This document shows positions 1,943 to 22,876 of a stretch of DNA of 33,047 nucleotides, piece by piece (within the stretch, counting starts at the first letter, position 1; each line of letters opens with the position of its first letter). The stretch covers positions 1 to 33,047 of IMG/VR virus record IMGVR_UViG_3300008267_000653. One strand, written 5' to 3'. This stretch comes from a virus. The translations under genes and the position numbers were made by a program. The notes below the pieces were generated by a model. The model had not been told where the DNA came from. It searched no databases and was given only the letters and a program-made list of their open reading frames with translations.

Positions 1943-3748
1943 ATGCCAGACAATCCACTCACAGATGATAAACTATCATCATTATTTTGGGAGCATATTG
2001 AATCGAAATTCAATGTTAAATATGCGGAATTGTATACTTATATGCAAAGTATAAGTGCATCGAATAATAAACAGCAAATTACTACTCTACATGATATTGT
2101 TTCATCGTTAAACACCAGAATTGAATTATATTCTGATGTATTGATTGATGTAAATTTAATCATCCCTAAAACCACTACAATAGCATTCAATGGGTTCAAA
2201 TTTATCAAAAATGCATCTAAAATACGAATCACGTATAATGGCAATATAGAAGCAGGCCGTTATCAAATTTTTTCAGGATTTGATGCTGGTGAAATACGAG
2301 GAAATTTCAACAGCCAAGAAATTTACCCAGAATGGTGGGGTTTAGTTGATAATAAGCATCAAGACGCTATTAATGCTGCTATACGTTCAAGACTTGATAC
2401 ACAATCTCCGGGTAATATTATAAGTCTTGCTGCTGGTGAATATTACATATCGGCACCTATTGATTTGATCGGATCTTATAGTGTTCTTCAAGGAGCCGGT
2501 GCAGGTCGGACAAAAATTACAGCCTCTGATGCATTTCCTTGGCCATTATCGGCATATTACGATAATGCGATTTTTGGACCATCATCACACACTGCGATGA
2601 TTTGGATGGGTGGTAATTATTCTCAAGAAGCTTTAAAGAGTGAATATTATCAGACTTTCAACACTGGTGTTAAAGGTATTACGTTAAATTCGTTTTATGC
2701 GACTTGGCAATATGGAGGCCCATCGAAAGGCAAATTTGTTTCAGGCATTTCATCACAAGGATACATTGAAGAAAATTCCTTTATACATAATGTTAATGTA
2801 AATTATGCAGGTGGGTTTGGGTTTGGATTTGCACCGATTTCTAATGCAACGCCTATTGTTTTGAATGGTCTCGAAATTCGTGATTTTTGGATTACAGGGC
2901 CTATTAGTGTAAGTTCAATTCCAATTTACCTGCCAGAAACTACAAACAATGCCATTGTTGAAATGGGCACAATTGATATGCGGCTTGATAAATCAATTAG
3001 TGTTGTTAATTCGGCATTGAACATACCACCAAGCTACTTCCCTGAAATAGCAATACAAGTCGATGGTGGTAAGACATACATCAGCAATATCCATATTGAA
3101 GGAACTACAATAGGAATCCGTATATCAACTCCGGCATCTGCTCCTTCTTATTGCTATGTTAATTCTGTAGATGTTAATTGGATGTGTGATTATGATGCTG
3201 TGTATTTTGACAATCCATCAAAGACAGGCAATAATATGGTACCTCCGCCATTGCTTACAACACAAATTGCGCAATTTCCGAGCGTATATACTCCAACATC
3301 ACAAACTCAAATCGATCCACATCTGCGCAAATATTCAACAGCTATATTAATTGCTAAAAACGATAGAGATTTGGCAAGCATGGGGACTGGGTGGTCACGC
3401 ACACATGGTGCTAAAAATTACAATAGTCGTGTAGTTTTGAATAATATTAGAGCAATAGGCAATGTACGATACATACTCAGAGATCCTGCGTATAATATAC
3501 ACATCTCTTCTTTTGGGCAAGGTGATAATGTTGGCTATTATGCATCATACTATGGTGGAATAACTTTCTATGCTAGAGGTGTTGCGGTGCCAGTTATTAA
3601 TAATATTAAATACGATTCCAAAGGAAATGCTATTTTGCCAATAGTTCCTAACTTTACATCCGCCGCTGGTAATATGTCAAAACCAGCATTCTCTTATTGG
3701 AATGCAGATACTCATAAAGATCGTCAATATTATCAATTGATCATTTAA
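1943..3748 (+). CDS. Tail-spike / receptor-binding protein with pectin-lyase-like beta-helix
   Basis: The protein has 601 residues. The short N-terminus (W17-x-HIE-x-KF24, then a probable helical stretch) is likely an attachment domain. From about residue 80 the sequence is rich in beta-helix-like repeats. It has the phage-spike motif PEWWGL near 129-134 followed by HQDAINAAI, the usual start of a pectate-lyase superfamily domain. Family members bind or cleave capsular or O-antigen polysaccharide as trimers at the tail tip. No specific catalytic residues can be named. The C-terminal ~200 residues (from roughly HLRKYSTAILIAKNDRDLASMG) are strongly conserved with the preceding broken paralog, probably as a trimerisation or receptor module. 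No Shine-Dalgarno is visible; CTAAATA lies 5 bases before the ATG. Substrate unknown. Confidence 0.8.
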   Translation: MPDNPLTDDKLSSLFWEHIESKFNVKYAELYTYMQSISASNNKQQITTLHDIVSSLNTRIELYSDVLIDVNLIIPKTTTIAFNGFKFIKNASKIRITYNGNIEAGRYQIFSGFDAGEIRGNFNSQEIYPEWWGLVDNKHQDAINAAIRSRLDTQSPGNIISLAAGEYYISAPIDLIGSYSVLQGAGAGRTKITASDAFPWPLSAYYDNAIFGPSSHTAMIWMGGNYSQEALKSEYYQTFNTGVKGITLNSFYATWQYGGPSKGKFVSGISSQGYIEENSFIHNVNVNYAGGFGFGFAPISNATPIVLNGLEIRDFWITGPISVSSIPIYLPETTNNAIVEMGTIDMRLDKSISVVNSALNIPPSYFPEIAIQVDGGKTYISNIHIEGTTIGIRISTPASAPSYCYVNSVDVNWMCDYDAVYFDNPSKTGNNMVPPPLLTTQIAQFPSVYTPTSQTQIDPHLRKYSTAILIAKNDRDLASMGTGWSRTHGAKNYNSRVVLNNIRAIGNVRYILRDPAYNIHISSFGQGDNVGYYASYYGGITFYARGVAVPVINNIKYDSKGNAILPIVPNFTSAAGNMSKPAFSYWNADTHKDRQYYQLII

Positions 3749-3775
3749 TTATGTTGCAATAAAATAAAGTATTTC

Positions 3776-3783
3776 CATAAATA
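3776..3783 (+). promoter_or_regulatory. Late-promoter-like CATAAATA before the permuted ribozyme
   Basis: CATAAATA ends 6 bases before 3790, the first base of the 13-bp helix that closes the structured RNA. By T4 late-promoter geometry the transcript would start at 3789-3790. The promoter role is inferred from similarity only. Confidence 0.45.
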
Positions 3784-3789
3784 ATTTGT

Positions 3790-4045
3790 AATATGGGGAT
3801 TGAAGAAATAGTCCGAACTATGTGGCGACATATAGAAGCAAAGTTTAAATCACTTTGCGATAACAATACTTGCTGCTGCGCAGGGTCAATTAGGCCCATA
3901 TCGGGTGAATTCAAGGGAACACTGATACCAGTCAACCTTGAGCCAAGTCTAATAAAAGTCACAAATGTATTAGAAAGGTGCAGAGACTAGACAGTGAGCC
4001 GACTTAGCAATAATCTGTCCACGAGCGCCCGACAATCCCCATATT
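3790..4045 (+). ncRNA. Circularly permuted group I intron-like ribozyme
   Basis: All four conserved group I core segments are visible, in the order S-P-Q-R instead of P-Q-R-S. S: AAGAAAUAGUCC (3803-3814). P: AAUUCAAGGGAAC (3908-3920). Q: CAACCUUGAGCCAAG (3933-3947). R: GGUGCAGAGACUAGACAG (3977-3994). Helices drawn by hand: P8 3790-3802/4033-4045 (13 perfect bp, joining the two ends); P7 3985-3989/3809-3813; P3 3901-3907/4026-4032 (one G-U); P4 3911-3916/3936-3941; P5 3921-3924/3929-3932; P6 3942-3944/3977-3979 with P6a 3948-3954/3968-3974; P9 3818-3835, closed by a GCGA tetraloop and resembling P9 of the T4 td intron. A hairpin 3990-3994/4015-4019 between P7 and P3' is typical of subgroup IA (P7.1/P7.2). 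The break is in the P8 loop. The exon and splice sites must lie in 3836-3882. A P1 candidate is 3869-3873/3880-3884 with U3870-G3883. A 65-codon frame (3793-3990) overlaps the RNA. Splicing activity is inferred. Confidence 0.8.
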
Positions 4046-4054
4046 CTTTATTTT

Positions 4055-4855
4055 ATGTCTAGTTTTACAGAATCTATTACTGCTATTGATCCGAAATTAT
4101 GTGTAGGTAATACATTATCAACCATCAATAGCAATTTTGATTTATTAGATTACAAATTATCTAATATTGCATTATCTGCAGATCAAATTTGGAACAACCT
4201 ATATACACTGGCAACTACGACATCGGGAGATTGGCAAGATGCGGTAGCAGTAGTGAGAAGTAGTTCTGCTAATTGGGATGATACCTATACTATTGTTTCT
4301 TCGTATAGTGCGTGTTGGTTAAGGCCTATTTCATTAATTTTTCCATTAACACCAGATAATAATGCAATTAACCAGACAACATTCATTAATAGTATTTCGT
4401 CTTGGTTGAATTCTAATTTTCCCGTAACGTCGATTGTCGATAATGCTACAGTGCTGAATTACTGCCCTGGCCAGGAAATATATGTCTTTACATTGGGATT
4501 CTTTAAAGATTTTGAAACAGTCGCTCCTGATACTAGATTCATCACTGCAAAGTGTAATGCTGCTGTTTCTTGGTCATATCGCAGCTGTAGTATTCGAGGT
4601 CGTTGCGTAACTAACACAAGAACTGTGGTTGGCTATGACCGCAATAACGTAGGCAATATTAATGATAATAGAGCTACAGGATTTGATGCTGGTGGTGGTG
4701 CTTCTGTTTCTCTTCTTTCGCAAGTAGTTGGCTTAGAAAATCTGAACACTTCGATTGTAAATTATATTCCTGCCGTGTATCCAAATTATTATAAATTCGT
4801 AAACACTACAGGATCAAGATGGCAGTATATCACGACAAAACCATTAAGTACGTAA
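4055..4855 (+). CDS. Probable virion/fibre protein sharing a domain with the next gene
   Basis: The protein has 266 residues and no family I can name. The N-terminal ~85 residues look helical, with repeated short phrases ([23 protein letters not shown]). From [10 protein letters not shown] the sequence runs F[13 protein letters not shown] and then EIYVFTLGF, matching the N-terminal part of the 1258-aa protein encoded next ([10 protein letters not shown][13 protein letters not shown], LYVFAMKGY). The two genes therefore share a domain of roughly 60-70 residues and probably a structural role. Its stop is one base before the next start, suggesting co-expression. The ATG follows closely on the structured RNA at 3790-4045. 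No Shine-Dalgarno is evident. Confidence 0.7.
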
Positions 4856-4856
4856 C

Positions 4857-7800
4857 ATGTCATGTTCCTATCCACACATTAATGATCTCGAAAGTGCAGG
4901 CTCTGCTATTGTGCTTATCAATGATCATTTTAAATGGATCGACAAAACAACAAATGAAATATTCGCACAGGCTGATAAATTATCAAAGGTAATTGGTCCT
5001 CTTCAAGATATAGTTACGGTTTCAAATTACCTGCTCGAAACATCAACCGGCAAACCAAAATACAAAACATTGAACGATATCCGTTCAATTGTTCAATCTG
5101 TTTCTTGTTGCGCTTCTAAGCCAGTAACTGTAATATACCCATATAAAATTACAGATCGAACTGCCTTTACAAGCTCAATAGTTAATTGGCTCGAGCAAAT
5201 TTTTCCAGCATCAGACAGTGATTGTCGTTTAGCTGATTTGTATGTCTTTGCAATGAAAGGATATGTGGATGAGGGTACTAGAACAACACCTATCCTTGCA
5301 CCAAATTTTGAGCCAAAATTTAATCCGATAGATAACAATGAAAGATTTTTAATGGGGCGTTTTATTCGTACTGGGTATCCATTATTAAAATGGACTTATT
5401 GGCCTACGATGAATCCATTTTATTGCACAGATGCAATAGAACCTTGTGAACAACCAACACCAGAAGAAAATCACTATTACAAGTTTACATCTTGCTCTGT
5501 GCCTGGATTAGTATTTTATTCTGCGAATGATTATAGCCATTTAGTTAATCTTGGTGTTGTACTTGACAAATACCCAGAAGATCGTTTCTTAGTATCTAGA
5601 GTATCCGTTACTGACAAAATTACAACAACGGATATCAATCCATTATTAACAAGTAAAAAGGGATGCAGTGAAACCTGTTATATTCTAACTAATACATTTA
5701 CTAAAGAAAAAATTGTTGCTATCAATGATGATTTCCAATATTATCTATCACCAAACACGACCGTTCAAATCAAAGACCTTGCTGGTGATTGGACTGTAGA
5801 AGAATCTACCGAAGATTGTGAATGTGGATGTGTTTATGATATTGAACGTTCAACTCCTGTCATTATCAAATTAACTAATTGCTGTTGGAAATACGAACCA
5901 TGTCCTGATGTCGTTAATGGCACACTCCGCAAAGAAATTTTTGTAATTGATAATAAACGACTTTTAATTCCAGGCAAGGCAGTTACTTTAGCAGAATTTC
6001 CTGGTGTAAGGTGGTATATTGAAAAGGTCAATTATGATAATCAAGAGATAGTTGAAAATTATACAATTATAGATTTATACGAAGATTGTAATTCACAAAA
6101 TCTTCCTAAGCCTATTGATACACTGCTTTATAAATTAACACCTTCTTGTGTGAATACATCCCGAACTGTATTGTATTCATCAAATCCACTACTCAAGCCT
6201 TATGTAGGTGCTGTAGTGCAAATCAATCTAGATAACCGAAATTATTATCAAGTTTCAATTGTTCCGCGCACATCACAGACGATTGATAATGTTACTATTA
6301 TTGATGTTTTCCAATTTGGATTTGATTTGCCGGAATACATGCCAGGAGAAAAATTAGCAGAAAGCTCTCCAATTTTTTCTAACATATTACTACAAGATTT
6401 TATTGTCGATGGTGCAGAATATTATACAAGACCAAATATCAATTATACCAATAAACCTGCACCAGCTTGTAAGCGCAAATTTTCATACTGGAATATTAAA
6501 TCAGGCATTCGCTCTACTGCTTCAGATGAACCTATTGCCTATACGAGAAGCTGGTCCAAAAATCAGGTACAAAATTATTCTAAAATTCTAGATGAATGGT
6601 ATACTAGTGAATCGTGGTTTGATTTTTCAATTTCGCAGCTTGATGAAATTGCAGCATTAACTATGGGTATGTCTGCTAGCGATGCGGATGAATATCTCAA
6701 ATCTCATGATATGTATTTTGAGATTGAAGTAGAATTTTCTAGGTATCGCAAAATATTAAGAGGATCAAGAAATCAATTATATGGAGAAGAAAGCGATTCA
6801 ATTGCTACTATTAAATCAGCTGCTTTGTATGGTGCAACTATAGCAGATACTGCTCTTGAATATGAAAACTGCGGACGCACTTTAGTCATGTCTAAGTGTG
6901 GCGAAGGTGATAAATTAGCAATCATATCGGAAGATGGATTGCTTTCAGTTGGTGATCGTATTGTATATAACGGAGAATATTATTCAGTTACATACGGATT
7001 AAGATCAGAAGTAACTAATATTGTTACTTTGAACAGAACAAATATTACAAAAGTAGATGAGCTTACTTTCAAAGCTAATTGCAATGTTCAGATCACACCG
7101 ACCCCAACGCCATCTATAACTCCATCTATAACGCCAACTAGAACACCTACAAAGACTCCAACTCCTACTAGAACCCCAACTAGAACTCCTACTAGAACCC
7201 CAACATCGACACCATCTATAACACCAACTAGAACACCGACCCCGACACCAACTAGAACACCAACTAGAACACCAACGACAGGGTTAACACCTACACCGAC
7301 ACCTACAAACAGTTCAACTCCTACAAGGACACCAACCAACACACCATCACCGTCGAATACATCATCACCAACACCATCACCGACACCATCCCAATCACCA
7401 CCGGAACCCCCAATTATTTCTTCTTATATCGCAGGCAATGATAGTTTGATTGTATACCTATTTGTCAGTAATCCTGAAAATATTGCAGATTTTGAATATT
7501 CAATTGACAATGGTGCTACATGGACATCTGCTGGTACTAATATTTCTCCTATTAAAATTGGAAGTCTTTCATATTACACATCATATTTCTTCTTTTTCAG
7601 ATTTAAAAATCTTGCAGGTATTTATAGTGAACGAACCACGGGTAGTGTTAATATTACGACAGGAGCTCCTCCGGATGTCGTAACACCAACTCCAACACCA
7701 TCACCAACTAAAACCCCAACTCCAACACCATCTATAACGCCAACTATAACACCAACACCTTCACCAGAACCAGCACCATATATTGCAAGCTTTAATATAA

Positions 7801-8633
7801 GCTTAAATAATGTATTTTTAAATCTTGGTACTTCTTTGCCGGATGTTGCATATTATGAATATACAACAAATGGTGGCGGAATATGGACACCGACAATATA
7901 TAATGCATCTCCTATTAAGGTATCTGGATTGAGTTATGGTGTTACATATTTTATTGCAACAAGAGCAAGAAAAACTAATGGAACATATAGCCCTCAGTCA
8001 AATACTATTATTGCTGAAATACCAATACCACCATCACCAACACCGACAAGAACCCCAACTAATACCCCATCTAATACTCCAACCCCATCGGTAACTCCAA
8101 CGCCGGGATTAACTCCGTCAGTAACTCCTACTAATACACCAACACCATCTGTAACTCCTACTAATACACCATCCAATACCCCAACACCATCTATAACACC
8201 ATCCATAACACCGACAAGAACTCCAACACCATCCATAACACCGACAACAACCCCAACCCCATCCATAACACCGACAAGAACTCCAACACCATCCATAACA
8301 CCGACACAAATCTTACCACCCACCCCTATTGAATTATCATATTCCCTTAATAATGGAATTATAACTATTATATTCACACAAGAATTTGAAGGGGGTTCGC
8401 CAATAACTGCAGTCGAATATAAAACGAATGCATTTATGACATATCAATCCGCATATGATTTTAATATAACTGCTGGTGGTGCTGGTGAATCATATTTCGA
8501 TATATCGATTGATAATGATAATTATATCGAATATAACACCACATATGACATCACAATTCGTGTACAAAATAGTTTCGGATATTCAGGCGAAGCCACAATT
8601 ACAGGTGTTAATACAGGAGGTCCGCCATCTTAA
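4857..8633 (+). CDS. Large modular adhesin/fibre with Thr-Pro linkers and fibronectin-like modules
   Basis: The protein has 1258 residues. Residues ~1-150 share a domain with the preceding gene. Residues ~200-500 hold several loosely repeated modules beginning YKFTSC, YILTNT, IKLTNC and YKLTPSC, many with Cys pairs. From about 746 there are three low-complexity Thr/Pro/Ser linkers (about 746-851, 941-973 and 1056-1153) alternating with three beta-sandwich-like modules (about 852-940, 974-1055 and 1154-1258). The first two contain aromatic-rich phrases ([21 protein letters not shown]) typical of fibronectin type III. The design suits an extended surface fibre whose C-terminal modules contact the host. 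It is placed after spikes and before a glycosyltransferase cluster. Thr/Ser-rich linkers are plausible glycosylation sites, but that is inference. Confidence 0.75.
7094..8316 (+). repeat. Thr-Pro-coding minisatellite tracts in the fibre gene
   Basis: Three tracts (about 7094-7410, 7681-7776 and 8026-8316) consist of tandem ACA/CCA-type codons encoding [13 protein letters not shown] and PSITP units. Near-identical 12-36 base units recur, for example CCATCCATAACACCGACA several times at 8207-8302. Such tracts expand and contract readily. The long open frames on the opposite strand here are only their reflection. Confidence 0.85.
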
Positions 8634-14202: not shown

Positions 14203-14209
14203 CTAAATA
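14203..14209 (+). promoter_or_regulatory. Late-promoter-like CTAAATA element
   Basis: CTAAATA is followed by exactly 5 bases and ATG 14215, the same arrangement as before the two tail-spike genes. It restarts the operon after the HtrL-GT2 gene. The promoter function is inferred. Confidence 0.4.
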
Positions 14210-14214
14210 GATGC

Positions 14215-14835
14215 ATGGATGTAAAATTGTACGAAGAGTATCTTCAAAGGAATAATATCTCTACCATTCCATCAAGCTATTGGGAGCCTGATTATCCAAA
14301 TTCTTATACGCTCATTAAGCCTTTTGATAGGTCTATTTTCAATATAGATTATCCTACTAATATTGAGGATTGCAAAAAAACGTTTAATATCACATTTCTG
14401 TTTCAGAAAGAAAGCTATTATAATACTAATGACATTTTATCATTGATTAAATTTATTTTGAAGTCCAATTTATCTTCAAAATACAATGTCATTTTTAAAT
14501 TTAACTATGAGCCACATCCCCACATTATTAAAACAATACCTCTGGCAAAAATTAAATATATTGGTCAATTGCCTACTCATGAATATTTTGGTTTATTACA
14601 GAATAGCCATTTAATTTGTAGTATCCATCGCACTGCTTTTTCGGGTCGTTTTCTGGCAGAGGCTGCAATGTTCCGAGTTCCAATTATTTCTTCACCAGTT
14701 GGAGGTGCAATGCAATTTTTAGATGATAGCAATGCTTTATTTTTCAAATCAAAAAATGCGGATGGCCCTGAAAATTTTGTGCCTTGCGAAGAATGTTATG
14801 GTGGCATTTTTAAGATGCCATGCAATTGTTTCTAG
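14215..14835 (+). CDS. GT4-like glycosyltransferase, probably frameshifted near its C-terminus
   Basis: The open frame encodes 206 residues. Central FNITFLFQKESYY opens a Rossmann domain, and GRFLAEAAMFRVPIISSPVGGAMQFLDDSNALFF is the GT-B donor-site signature. After CEECYGG the frame ends in an odd tail, IFKMPCNCF. In the neighbouring frame, 14804-14896 encodes RCHAIVSRLYSQSNYNETLKYIREE, a typical C-terminal helix for this family, ending 2 bases before the next gene. Removing one T from the five-T run at 14807-14811 would join the two into a 226-residue protein. This is either a sequencing indel, a real mutation or a programmed shift. There is no N-terminal GT-B domain, so it is short for the family. 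Confidence 0.7.
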   Translation: MDVKLYEEYLQRNNISTIPSSYWEPDYPNSYTLIKPFDRSIFNIDYPTNIEDCKKTFNITFLFQKESYYNTNDILSLIKFILKSNLSSKYNVIFKFNYEPHPHIIKTIPLAKIKYIGQLPTHEYFGLLQNSHLICSIHRTAFSGRFLAEAAMFRVPIISSPVGGAMQFLDDSNALFFKSKNADGPENFVPCEECYGGIFKMPCNCF

Positions 14836-19011: not shown

Positions 19012-19563
19012 TTATAGAGAGCAATTTCCACTAGCACACCCACCTTCTTCAGGTTCTTCTTGAGGTGTATCATTACTTACGTCAGATACAAGGCTGGTGT
19101 CTGATTGAACTTTTTGTTTATTTTTAGCATAATATAGAGTTTTGAGACCATACTTATACGACAGAAGTATATCAGTTGCAACGTCTGTTGTCTCTAATTT
19201 ATTATCTTCATAATTACCATAATTATAATAGTGATTGGTACTAGCAGCCATGCAGAGCCACTTAGTAATAGTCGCTGCACATTTGATAATTCCTAGATTA
19301 GAACAATCATATGCCGACTTATAATATTTTCCATATTTCTTAGCACCTGGTGCAATCCATGCAGCAGATCCCTGGCGATCATCTTTAAATTGGAATAGCT
19401 GAACAATTGGCTCCATTCCATTTGTTGAATTCTGCATTAAGGAACTATTATGTGATACAATTTTGCTTTTCCCTGAGTCGATTACATAAGAATGGACATT
19501 CGGAGATTCCACATCGTATGTTGGGCAAATTTCGTTAGATTTTGTTATTCTTTTGATTTTCAT
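19012..19563 (-). CDS. nrdA: NrdA C-terminal fragment preceded by the C-half of a split intein
   Basis: From ATG 19563 the protein has 183 residues. Residues 1-39 are a split-intein C-half, MKIKRITKSNEICPTYDVES... ending IVSHN, with block F (TYDV...HSYV) and block G (His-Asn, then Ser as +1 residue). Residues 40-183 complete NrdA: SSLMQNSTNGMEP, LKTLYYAKNKQ (the Tyr-Tyr pair of the radical path) and the terminal Cys pair CASGNC that is re-reduced after turnover. Trans-splicing with the partner at 20672-22876 would give a 769-residue NrdA, close to the ~760 usual length. The start lies inside the endonuclease gene (29-base overlap) with no clear ribosome site. A TTG at 19593 is a less likely start. 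Confidence 0.9.
   Translation of the reverse strand: MKIKRITKSNEICPTYDVESPNVHSYVIDSGKSKIVSHNSSLMQNSTNGMEPIVQLFQFKDDRQGSAAWIAPGAKKYGKYYKSAYDCSNLGIIKCAATITKWLCMAASTNHYYNYGNYEDNKLETTDVATDILLSYKYGLKTLYYAKNKQKVQSDTSLVSDVSNDTPQEEPEEGGCASGNCSL
19447..19563 (-). other. Split intein C-half (IntC, 39 residues)
   Basis: It has the typical size of a natural IntC. It ends HN followed by Ser+1 of the C-extein at 19444-19446. It pairs with the 109-residue IntN at 20675-21001. Confidence 0.9.
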
Positions 19564-20623
19564 ATTCGTTATATAGTCTATACAATTCGTCAATACTGAT
19601 ACTTGACCTGCTTTGTTTTGAACAATTTTTTGATCTCTCTAAAATTTCTAAATTAACAACAGACCCAATCACTCTCGGTGATATATCGTTTATATATCCT
19701 TGCTTCTGTGAATATCTATGATCTACATGATATTCCTTACTTCTTTTTTCAAAAAGAGCTTCATTTTCATTGATTGATTGGGACGTCCAAAATCCTACTT
19801 CCATTTTATATTTTTTCCAGTCATCTAATTTGTCAAGGGATAACCACACTCCCTTTTTTTCCATTGTCTCTCTCAATTTATTATTAATTTCTTGATGATG
19901 CGCAAGCCATTCATCACCAAATATGCGTTGGAGATTCGCTGGGTTTCTTGTGTTGTTGAATATCCGCTTGGTGTTTATTTTTTCTAAAATAATATCAATA
20001 TCCTCGTCTGTATATCCTTTGTCGTAATATACCGAACATAGTAGCCCGCACTTTTGAAGATAATATTCACGGGCTAATTTACAGGCTTCCTCCTTGGTAC
20101 AATCTTGTCTTGATAAATAATATTCTTTACACCATTTGGATTTGCGTCGCATGTAATTACTGTATTCACATTTCCATGTATGTGGATATTTTTGTTTATA
20201 CTCATTCAATATATTAACTGAGGATTTCCTGCTTGACAACTGAAATTTTTTAAATAATGCTTCTCCTCTCTCCTTGCCGTGTCTTTCACAAAATCCTTTC
20301 AAAGATGTAGTCTTTTGTGATTTTAAATTAGTTATTTTTAATTCCGCTTCATCTAATGTAATGCCGAATTTGAGAGATGCAGTGAGAGGATCATACATAA
20401 CGGGAATTTTATTCTGAAGGCAATATTTGACTCGGTTGTTCCACTTGTAAAATCCATCTTTTGACCATTTGTCTTTTATCGCCATCGCAAAGAGTTTTAT
20501 TGTTTTACCTTGAAACCCTTCACTATACAGTTCATCTACATCTTTTTTGGCATTTATATTCGTTGAAAATGCATTTAAAAAATCAATAATACTACTCTTT
20601 AGATTAGAACGTTTAGTTGCCAT
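19535..20623 (-). CDS. HNH-type homing endonuclease between the split-intein halves
   Basis: The protein has 362 residues. The C-terminal motif YHVDHRYSQKQG (H299, D301, H302), followed by P-x-VIG-x-VVNLEIL (N324) and a Cys/Ser/Lys-rich tail, is the phage HNH signature. Earlier segments rich in basic and aromatic residues (ERHGKERGEALFKKF, NPANLQRIFGDEW) look like DNA-binding modules. The gene occupies the place where an intein endonuclease domain would normally sit, but as a free-standing cistron. Its product would be expected to cut intein-less nrdA alleles and spread the locus. Start codon ATG 20623 is inside an 18-bp inverted repeat with no Shine-Dalgarno; the 3' end overlaps the IntC start. 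Confidence 0.8.
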   Translation of the reverse strand: MATKRSNLKSSIIDFLNAFSTNINAKKDVDELYSEGFQGKTIKLFAMAIKDKWSKDGFYKWNNRVKYCLQNKIPVMYDPLTASLKFGITLDEAELKITNLKSQKTTSLKGFCERHGKERGEALFKKFQLSSRKSSVNILNEYKQKYPHTWKCEYSNYMRRKSKWCKEYYLSRQDCTKEEACKLAREYYLQKCGLLCSVYYDKGYTDEDIDIILEKINTKRIFNNTRNPANLQRIFGDEWLAHHQEINNKLRETMEKKGVWLSLDKLDDWKKYKMEVGFWTSQSINENEALFEKRSKEYHVDHRYSQKQGYINDISPRVIGSVVNLEILERSKNCSKQSRSSISIDELYRLYNEYENQKNNKI

Positions 20624-20662
20624 AATGCGTATAGATTTACTTATCGCATTATGGCAACTAAA
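20612..20662. repeat. 18-bp perfect inverted repeat over the endonuclease start codon
   Basis: The arms are 20612-20629 (TTTAGTTGCCATAATGCG) and 20645-20662, separated by 15 bases. On the minus-strand transcript the 3' arm contains the endonuclease ATG and its first four codons, so the mRNA should fold it into a stable hairpin. It lies 9 bases past the stop of the nrdA-IntN gene. No T-tract follows, so it is not a standard terminator. Confidence 0.85.
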
Positions 20663-20671
20663 TTAGGCATA

Positions 20672-22876
20672 TTATTCGATTTCCATAATTTCCTCATCAA
20701 CTGAAAGGGCTTCCACAGTCTTCCACCCATCCTTAGTCAAGAATCTATGATCTTTAGTTGCTTTGATAATATCACCATTTTCAAGTTCAATATCAAACAC
20801 TTCGCTAGTGCCATTGTAATAAATTCTATTCGTCTCGACCGGCCCGTCTTTGGTGTCGAGTGTAATCGTTTTATCAGACTCATGCCATCCTTTCATATCA
20901 TGCATTTCAATATTCTTCCACGAAAATCCAAGGTGTTCACAAATTTCATGGAAGTTCATGGACTTGCCATCAACAAAGACTTTGGTATCCCACTTTAGGC
21001 ACTTTTCACAAGGCATCTGCGAACTGACTGTCATATTGCGCATTCCATCTTTACGGATGTTTTCCATTAAAGCATCCCAATCCATAGTAGGTTTGCGAGT
21101 AATAAATTCATCTACATCTTTTTTATACAAATCAAGCTTTGAATACCCATGAGCATATTTGGAAAGATTCCAGTCAGGAGCAGCGCCCTTTTCTTTTGCT
21201 AATAACCAAGATGCTTCCATTAGATAGTACTGTTGTTTCTCCATGAATTCATCAATAGCATTTGGTGCTTCTGATGAGTCATGATTCAACCCCTTCGATG
21301 CTAGCCATCCCGCAAGATTGGTAATACCAATACCAAGAGATCTTTTATTCTTGGTAAATCTTTCAGCAGCAACCGAGAAATATGCTTGATTATCAATCAT
21401 ATCATCAAGCATACGAACGGCTTGATGGCAAACGGCACGATGCTGATTATCATTATGAATATTAAGCATGTTGATTGCTGCCAGCAGACAAGTCCCAATT
21501 TCACCATTAGGATCATCAAGACTTTGTAGTGTCTTAGTTGGCTGCAGAATCTCAACACATAGATTAGTCATATTGACTCTTTCTGTCCATGGTGAATATT
21601 CATTAGCCAAATCAATATTGAGAACATAAATGCGATTAGTTTCAATGCGCTCTTTAATCAGAAGATCAAATATATCATCTGCAGGTACTGACTTCTTGAA
21701 TCGAAGATTAGGATTGTTCTCTGCTTGAATATAAAGCTCGTCAAATCCAGGCAAGCCGAATGATTCAAATAATTCAGGAACTTCATGATATGAGAATAAT
21801 GTAATGTTTTCGCTATTATTCCAACGCTCATAGAAAAGCTTTGAAATACCAATTACATAGTCGAGATGGCGAACCCGATTATATTCAGTGCCACCAACAT
21901 TACGCAGCTGAAGAATAGACTCAATTTCATAATGGAAAATCGGCGCATTGGCAGTACCAGCACCACGACGTGCACCACCTTGTTGCTGTGATTTGATGGC
22001 ATCTTGAAACACCTTTAAATATGGAATAACACCACCATGAACAGTCTCTCCATTCTTTACAGGAGAACCTACAGCACGAATCTTGCCGAAGTCTAATCCA
22101 ATACCATAACCATAGCTAGTAGCCCTTGCCATAACATGAGTCGATGAGAAGATAGAATCTGCTGTATCGTCGACTTGAATGAGGCAACATGATGCACCAG
22201 TCTTAACATTAGTTCTCCATCGTGTGAGCATTGGAGTTGGAATGTTCAAACGTCTTTCTGCAACATCATTATAAAACTGTCGGACGAATTGCAGCTTTCT
22301 CTTTGAATCATAATTGGCATAATGTGTCATACCAATACACATGATAGCAAACTGAGGAGTTTCGTAAATTTTATTATTATGCCGATCTTGAATTAAGCCA
22401 GTCTTAATCAAGTGTTTCATTCCAGCGAAATCAAACATATTTTCATCATGTTCGTGATTGATCCAATTACCAATCTTATTGATTTCTTCTTCTGTATATT
22501 TTTCAAGAAGTTCTTTGGTGTATACACCTTGTTCCACACATTTCTTGATATGGTCATAAAGTTTAGGTGGATTATTTCCGCCCCAGACATCTTTGCGAAG
22601 ACCATAAAGTAGCAATCTAGCAGCTACAATAGAATAATTGGGATTTTCTAAAGAAATAAGATTTTCTGCTGACTTGACTAATGCATCTTGAATTTCTCTT
22701 GTGGTAATTCCATTATAGAAATTGATATTGGCATTCATGAGGATATCCATTGAGGATACTCCTGTAATGCATTTGGTTGCATAATATACCATACTGTTTG
22801 ACTTCTCTGCATCAAACATTTCCATTTCTCCATTACGTTTCTTAACTTGTATATTCATAGTATTTTTTACAGCCAT
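20672..22876 (-). CDS. nrdA: NrdA N-terminal fragment fused to the N-half of a split intein
   Basis: The protein has 734 residues. Residues 1-625 are class Ia NrdA: an ATP-cone-like N-terminus (about 10-100), active-site C230 (GASCCLIQVDD, equivalent to E. coli C225), N438-C440-E442 (TNLCVE) and C463 (GTCLLA). At K625 in MPCEK the sequence switches to a 109-residue intein N-half starting at Cys (CLKWDTKVFVDG, block A), with block B ATKDHRFLTKDGW, and then stops. NrdA is the catalytic subunit reducing NDPs; the final ~144 residues come from 19012-19563 by trans-splicing. CTAAATA lies 10 bases before the ATG. A second ATG at residue 7 is possible. Confidence 0.95.
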   Translation of the reverse strand: MAVKNTMNIQVKKRNGEMEMFDAEKSNSMVYYATKCITGVSSMDILMNANINFYNGITTREIQDALVKSAENLISLENPNYSIVAARLLLYGLRKDVWGGNNPPKLYDHIKKCVEQGVYTKELLEKYTEEEINKIGNWINHEHDENMFDFAGMKHLIKTGLIQDRHNNKIYETPQFAIMCIGMTHYANYDSKRKLQFVRQFYNDVAERRLNIPTPMLTRWRTNVKTGASCCLIQVDDTADSIFSSTHVMARATSYGYGIGLDFGKIRAVGSPVKNGETVHGGVIPYLKVFQDAIKSQQQGGARRGAGTANAPIFHYEIESILQLRNVGGTEYNRVRHLDYVIGISKLFYERWNNSENITLFSYHEVPELFESFGLPGFDELYIQAENNPNLRFKKSVPADDIFDLLIKERIETNRIYVLNIDLANEYSPWTERVNMTNLCVEILQPTKTLQSLDDPNGEIGTCLLAAINMLNIHNDNQHRAVCHQAVRMLDDMIDNQAYFSVAAERFTKNKRSLGIGITNLAGWLASKGLNHDSSEAPNAIDEFMEKQQYYLMEASWLLAKEKGAAPDWNLSKYAHGYSKLDLYKKDVDEFITRKPTMDWDALMENIRKDGMRNMTVSSQMPCEKCLKWDTKVFVDGKSMNFHEICEHLGFSWKNIEMHDMKGWHESDKTITLDTKDGPVETNRIYYNGTSEVFDIELENGDIIKATKDHRFLTKDGWKTVEALSVDEEIMEIE
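20675..21001 (-). other. Split intein N-half (IntN, 109 residues)
   Basis: It begins with nucleophile Cys (codon 20999-21001) directly after MPCEK of NrdA. It contains block A, and block B with T-x-x-H (TKDH). It ends at a natural stop instead of continuing into an endonuclease domain. Confidence 0.9.

Follow-up and report, generated by a model that had tools for sequence, protein, structure and literature searches.

Positions 3790-4045 of a 33,047-base IMG/VR virus record (referred to below as the window, that is, the whole stretch of DNA analysed) hold a complete subgroup-IA-like group I intron core in permuted order. The 3' half of the intron is encoded first, a micro-exon follows and the 5' half comes last; this order and the helix that joins the outer ends are present in the sequence itself, and a single transcript would run across both halves. 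The element is intergenic, located 3' of a likely tail-spike gene and 5' of a gene for an unknown protein in a T4-like phage. It is probably a natural circularly permuted (CP) group I ribozyme of subgroup IA type, which would cut the leader of a late mRNA and release a circle of 14 nucleotides (nt). Its architecture and its homology to group I introns are evident in the parts listed here, several of which were placed by alignment to the Rfam model RF00028. Read 5' to 3', the layout is P8 3' strand, S, P9, P9.1, 3' splice site, micro-exon, 5' splice site with P1, P3 to P6, R, P7.1, P3' and P8 5' strand.

3790-3802 (+), P8 3' strand, AATATGGGGATTG; 13-bp complement of 4033-4045, 10 bp in the related contigs L004 and L012
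3803-3814 (+), S element, comprising J8/7 and the P7 3' strand, AAGAAATAGTCC; RF00028 alignment, with the same layout in normal-order relatives
3818-3835 (+), P9 hairpin with a GCGA tetraloop; folding, with a compensatory change at 3821/3832
3838-3858 (+), P9.1 hairpin; homology to P9.1 of normal introns, with a compensatory change at 3844/3852
3859-3872 (+), 3' end of the intron with omega-G 3872 and the predicted 3' splice site 3872^3873; P9.0, formed by AA (3816-3817) with UU (3870-3871), and the family motif TAAC...TG^
3873-3886 (+), predicted 14-nt micro-exon, CTGCTGCGCAGGGT; between the putative splice sites, identical in all permuted sequences
3883-3897 (+), P1, in which GGGU (3883-3886)^ pairs with the internal guide sequence (IGS) GGCCC (3893-3897), the predicted 5' splice site being 3886^3887; folds as drawn, with the U3886.G3894 wobble invariant
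3901-3907 (+), P3 5' strand; RF00028 alignment, P3 covarying across relatives
3910-3978 (+), P4, P5, P4' and P6 (P and Q elements); RF00028 alignment, with P5 pair 3924/3929 changed from G-C to C-G
3981-3989 (+), R element with the P7 5' strand, CAGAGACTA; RF00028 alignment, invariant in relatives
3990-4019 (+), P7.1 and P7.2 hairpin, subgroup IA type; compensatory change at 3992/4017
4026-4032 (+), P3' (3' strand); RF00028 alignment, with the pairing formed in the alignment
4033-4045 (+), P8 5' strand, CAATCCCCATATT; 13-bp complement of 3790-3802

The permuted order of the core, put forward in an earlier note on this DNA, is confirmed by two kinds of model search. RF00028 itself gave two + strand matches in swapped order: one at 3852-4141, with 53.0 bits (above the gathering score of 50), whose real extent is P3 to P3' (~3899-4032), and one at 3722-3835, with 28.6 bits, whose real extent is the P8 3' strand through J8/7-P7'-P9 (~3796-3835). 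The alignment outside the core (3722-3790 and 4046-4141) is filler and was ignored. A permuted covariance model was then derived from 13 normal-order introns of the same subfamily, found by a scan for the motifs GGTGCAGAGACTA...CACGAGCG, by cutting each at the P8 loop, swapping the halves and aligning the products; no sequence of the window type was included. This model, corresponding to the check by an Infernal model split and rejoined at L8 that the note had proposed, has one full-length match in the window (3797-4040, model positions 1-217, 127.8 bits, E 1.4e-35), the next best having an E of 6.4. Scored separately, the R half reaches 104.1 bits and the S half 33.7 bits. The downstream S that the note had considered as a means of restoring normal order is missing, as the 33-kb record was found to hold neither an S located 3' of R nor an R located 5' of S (RF00028, E up to 1), and a 196-kb related record yields a single further match at E < 0.7, which is a normal-order intron within a tRNA gene. 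A canonical linear group I intron (P1...R-P3'-P8-S, with the flanking exons joined) was rejected, given that S precedes R and the record holds no second S or R. A CP group II ribozyme (D5-D6 upstream of D1-D4) was likewise rejected, no group II family being reported by cmscan at E up to 1.

The helices that close the permuted core are equally distinctive. P8 is a perfect 13-bp helix (3790-3802/4033-4045) lying directly outside J8/7 and P3', which is its proper place; when the two flanks were shuffled, an equally anchored helix of at least 8 bp arose in 22 of 20,000 trials and one of 13 bp in none. The minimum free energy of a 266-nt stretch has a z of -4.7 relative to shuffles. The guanosine-binding helix P7, assembled from R and S, consists of GACTA (3985-3989) paired with TAGTC (3809-3813), plus C3814-G3983, and is formed in all the sequences. 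The P7.1/P7.2 extension by which subgroup IA is recognized lies between P7 and P3' at 3990-4019. The 13-bp helix, the P7.1-like hairpin (with its covarying pair) and the GNRA-capped P9 (with its GCGA loop and compensatory change) had all been described in the earlier note, and each of them stands. R, S, P4 and J4/5 carry the motifs of normal introns, to which the R half is up to 77% and the S half up to 81% identical.

The limits of the exon were placed by comparison with these normal-order relatives, in which P9 is followed by P9.1, then by TAAC and a few bases, then by ...TG and the exon; in one of them (L112), splicing at the ...TG junction restores the NrdA reading frame. Since 3838-3858 and 3859-3872 of the window are homologous to P9.1 and to the 3' end of the normal introns, 3836-3872 is intron, and the exon that the earlier note had located in 3836-3882 therefore proves to be mostly intron. 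The 3' boundary is further indicated by P9.0, formed between J7/9 and the two bases that precede omega-G: these pairs covary as AA/UU, AC/GU and AG/CU, both are present in 10 of the 13 normal introns, and in the window they are AA/UU, ending at G3872. At the 5' splice site U3886.G3894 is kept while the adjacent P1 pair changes from C-G to U.G. The hallmarks of group I splice sites (P1 U.G, omega-G and P9.0) are thus all present at the level of sequence, and the exon is probably 3873-3886, 14 nt, CTGCTGCGCAGGGT. On its own this exon forms a 4-bp hairpin no better than that of shuffles (z -0.97), which was given no weight.

The same permuted RNA was found, with a pattern demanding S before R, in seven other contigs (L004, L012, L013, L019, L025, L031 and L035), in accordance with the suggestion that phage and metagenome contigs be searched for the same order. 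Three distinct sequences are represented over the eight contigs: L019 has the one found in the window, L004 shares a second with four others, and L012 has the third. In all of them the site is the same, directly upstream of a homologue of the 266-amino-acid (aa) gene at 4055-4855. The eight contigs come from several metagenomes and are up to 196 kb in length, so they are not an assembly artefact. The 196-kb relative carries T4-type head, portal, tail, polymerase and terminase genes, and its capsid protein is ~34% identical to cyanophage gp23.

When the three distinct sequences are aligned, selection on the RNA is apparent. The drawn structure comprises 76 pairs (P1, P3-P6, P7, P7.1, P7.2, P8, P9, P9.0 and P9.1), and all 76 form in every sequence that has letters there, whereas slid structures pair at 37-42%. 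Double-sided changes occur in four pairs, namely in P5 (G-C/C-G), P7.1 (C-G/U-A), P9 (U-A/C-G) and P9.1 (U-A/C-G), and of the 12 helix substitutions that separate the window from L004, none disrupts a pair. The element is 88% identical, against 73% for the next gene. The group I splice elements and the R, S and J8/7 motifs are kept though the loops vary. In combination, these comparisons show an element whose substitutions, read from aligned sequences, have been constrained by RNA structure.

The scheme that we infer, from use of the promoter through catalysis and closure of the circle to a function for the processed leader and a role for the phage, would run as follows. Transcription from a late-type promoter would start at the 5' end of the element, and the two intron halves would fold as one ribozyme held together by P8, P3 and P7. 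A guanosine cofactor would attack after U3886 of the P1 U.G pair (3886^3887), and the freed 3'-OH of the exon would then attack after omega-G 3872 (3872^3873). The order of these two attacks follows established group I chemistry. The exon (3873-3886) would leave as a 14-nt circle, or as a linear 14-mer should ligation fail; rolling-circle cDNA synthesis on the circle would give CUGCUGCGCAGGGU repeats. The transcript would be split into an 84-nt 5' piece, carrying the S half, and an mRNA for the genes at 4055-8633 that starts with the P1-P8 half, and the two pieces would stay paired through P8 and P7. More tentatively, and with rather more doubt than the splicing reaction itself, the element may be a domesticated, dedicated ribozyme that is no longer an intron: it would have its own late promoter and act on the leader of two paired late genes. 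Cleavage would free a 14-nt circle, and the downstream mRNA would have a 5' end that begins with guanosine and is clamped by an 84-nt RNA bound in trans.

The promoter-like site and the surrounding features are as follows.

1943-3748 (+), upstream gene, tail-spike-like, with its own TAAATA-N5-ATG
3776-3783 (+), late-promoter-like CATAAATA, with TAAATA at 3778-3783; predicted start ~3789-3790
3793-3990 (+), 65-codon open reading frame (ORF) overlapping the ribozyme, judged not coding
4055-4855 (+), downstream gene, 266 aa, unknown protein, without a TAAATA of its own and with the ribozyme as its putative leader

The predicted start falls just one base ahead of P8. This placement is shared by L031 and L012, whose P8 has three fewer pairs (10 vs 13 bp) and whose TAAATA is nearer by three bases. 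A T4-type late promoter motif appears to be in use in this phage, to judge from the distribution of the hexamer: 36 sense and 9 antisense copies of intergenic TAAATA lie upstream of ORFs in the 196-kb relative (G001), compared with 5 and 0 in the window. The spacing peaks at TAAATA-N5/6-ATG, as at 54-67, 1932-1945 and 14204-14217 of the window and also in the 196-kb relative (L164-L173). Because of this spacing and the rarity of Shine-Dalgarno-like sites (15 of 217), the late mRNAs of this phage look leaderless. The late-promoter factor gp55 was not found among the ten small ORFs tried. The gene at 4857-8633, which adjoins 4055-4855, likewise has no TAAATA of its own, and the ribozyme would therefore be the leader of the pair. 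The products of these two genes have a similar N-terminal pattern and no match among GenBank phages. The tail-spike-like assignment of the upstream gene is based on a weak Pectate_lyase_5 match of its positional equivalent in the related phage.

Several observations weigh against the interpretation of the element as a splicing, circle-forming ribozyme. All eight occurrences belong to one phage lineage and amount to three distinct sequences. Scans for further permuted cases included a GATGA-type S, genome contigs, a looser S with GTGCAGAGACTA or GTTCAGAGACTA, and an S...R spacing of ~195-255 nt. The four short-spacing scans (three run on viral contigs and the fourth on genomes), which covered short exons with common S/R motifs, yielded no second lineage, and nor did the longer-spacing scan; the other matches examined were tandem or single normal introns or chance, none combining the S-R permutation with an outer P8. 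A circle of 14 nt is tight for P1 and the splice-site geometry, and no P10 is evident. Finally, the covariation looked for by the earlier note is found in part: compensatory changes are present in P5, P7.1, P9 and P9.1, but P3, P7 and the ten shared P8 pairs are invariant within the permuted set. Support for these helices comes from their sequence identity, from the normal relatives, across which P3 and P9.0 show family-wide covariation, and from the matched change in P8 length.

Four other explanations have to be set against this reading. The permuted fold may no longer splice and may instead serve as a structured 5' leader controlling the stability or translation of the genes at 4055-8633, which would accord with its strongly conserved structure and with its being the only leader of genes that lack a TAAATA; we regard this as unlikely, since P1 U.G, omega-G, P9.0, the IGS, R, S and J8/7 all match normal introns and are kept, none of which a mere leader needs. 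It is much less probable still that the element is a functionless remnant of two tandem introns, in which deletions left only the 3' half of the first, a micro-exon and the 5' half of the second. Tandem normal introns with a 15-nt micro-exon do exist in the same subfamily (L003) and are a likely source of the permuted order, yet a passive remnant does not explain a perfect outer P8 built from both halves, RNA-level constraint, helix changes that are all paired, or retention in two diverged phages.

The 65-codon ORF at 3793-3990 could in principle be a small leaderless gene of 65 aa within which the RNA fold is incidental, as it is open in all three sequences and its ATG follows TAAATA by 9 nt in the window or 6 nt in L031. 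Its pN/pS (ratio of non-synonymous to synonymous change) is however 0.87-0.98, with changes spread 11/8/7 over the codon positions, compared with 0.22 and 49/41/131 in the next gene, and its synonymous change is low (0.15 vs 0.69). As a selected feature the ORF is ruled out by these figures; 33% of random change sets also leave the frame open, which makes its openness likely to be due to chance, and a permuted group I match at E 1.4e-35 cannot be incidental, so that the small-gene explanation is extremely improbable. Hardly any credence can be given to the proposal that the halves belong to two separate split introns acting in trans with partner pieces encoded at other places in the genome. 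Trans-splicing of group I introns does occur (reviewed in PMC6545197), but no other intron halves are present in the 33-kb record, the 196-kb record has only one complete intron (in normal order, in the tRNA gene), and the two halves here pair with each other through P8, P7 and P3.

Permuted group I introns are a laboratory workhorse for circular RNA, and the long P8 clamp of the present element resembles the homology arms added by engineers to permuted intron-exon (PIE) constructs. The constructs derived from the td and Anabaena introns (Puttaraju and Been 1992, as cited in PMC6545197) have the same topology (3' half, exon, 5' half), although they are man-made and have larger exons, whereas the element here is natural. 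The only natural permuted group I splicing in the literature searched is that of the coral mitochondrial ND5-717 intron, which is back-spliced (Chi et al. 2019, PMC6545197); this intron is giant, spans the mitochondrial genome and is permuted because that genome is circular. It shares the break in P8, but its 2.1-kb circle yields the ND5 mRNA, in contrast to the compact 256-nt element encoded permuted here, with a non-coding 14-nt exon. The same literature, a scope outside which bioRxiv and most subscription journals fall, yielded no natural permuted group I intron from a phage. The closest parallel in another intron class is provided by the CP group II ribozymes (Roth et al. 2021, PMC8637638), which reacted in vitro, whose circles are predicted to be 15-86 nt and whose role is unknown. 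They too are natural permutations of a self-splicing intron with reversed internal splice sites and a tiny exon, and the 14-nt exon here is close to their range; they differ in class and chemistry (a branched product rather than a guanosine cofactor) and in being bacterial and often plasmid-borne, as opposed to residing in a T4-like phage.

Compared with the normal subgroup-IA-like phage introns that carry GGTGCAGAGACTA and CACGAGCG (for example L103, L110 and L092), the element has the same R, S, P3-P7, P7.1, P9, P9.1, 3' end and P9.0 rule. It is distinguished from them by its swapped halves, by a P8 that is opened and lengthened to 10-13 bp, by a micro-exon around which it would splice where the others join flanking exons, and by its non-coding site. 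Tandem normal introns with micro-exons, which contain the same S-exon-R segment, are a plausible origin of the permuted order. If the proposed reading is correct, evolution has built the laboratory PIE design, in parallel to the CP group II ribozymes, and the role of permuted introns becomes testable in a phage; with its 14-nt exon and long P8 clamp, the element would also be a natural PIE from which circle-making constructs could practically be developed.

A search of GenBank phages by tblastn with the neighbouring proteins gave no match, hence no empty site lacking the element was found. A distant protein search gave only one further, partial relative (L196), in which the permuted model has no match. 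Tandem normal group I introns with very short exons were seen in L003 (~5973-6220, 15 nt), L008, L022, L114-L116, L120 and L122-L124. The normal-order group I intron of the 196-kb relative (L162 1501-1709, - strand; contig 4615-4823) appears to interrupt the tRNA gene. Introns of the same subfamily in L092, L102 and L105 are preceded by a stop codon with a Shine-Dalgarno-like AAAGGAG and followed by the next ATG; they are possibly intergenic, normal-order introns whose P1 is unclear. In the window itself, NrdA is split at 19012-22876 (- strand): an intein N half (PF14890, 24.7 bits, below the cut-off) lies at the end of the first ORF, a 362-aa ORF follows at 19535-20623, and the remainder of NrdA occupies 19012-19593. 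This arrangement of reading frames suggests a split intein into which a gene has been inserted.
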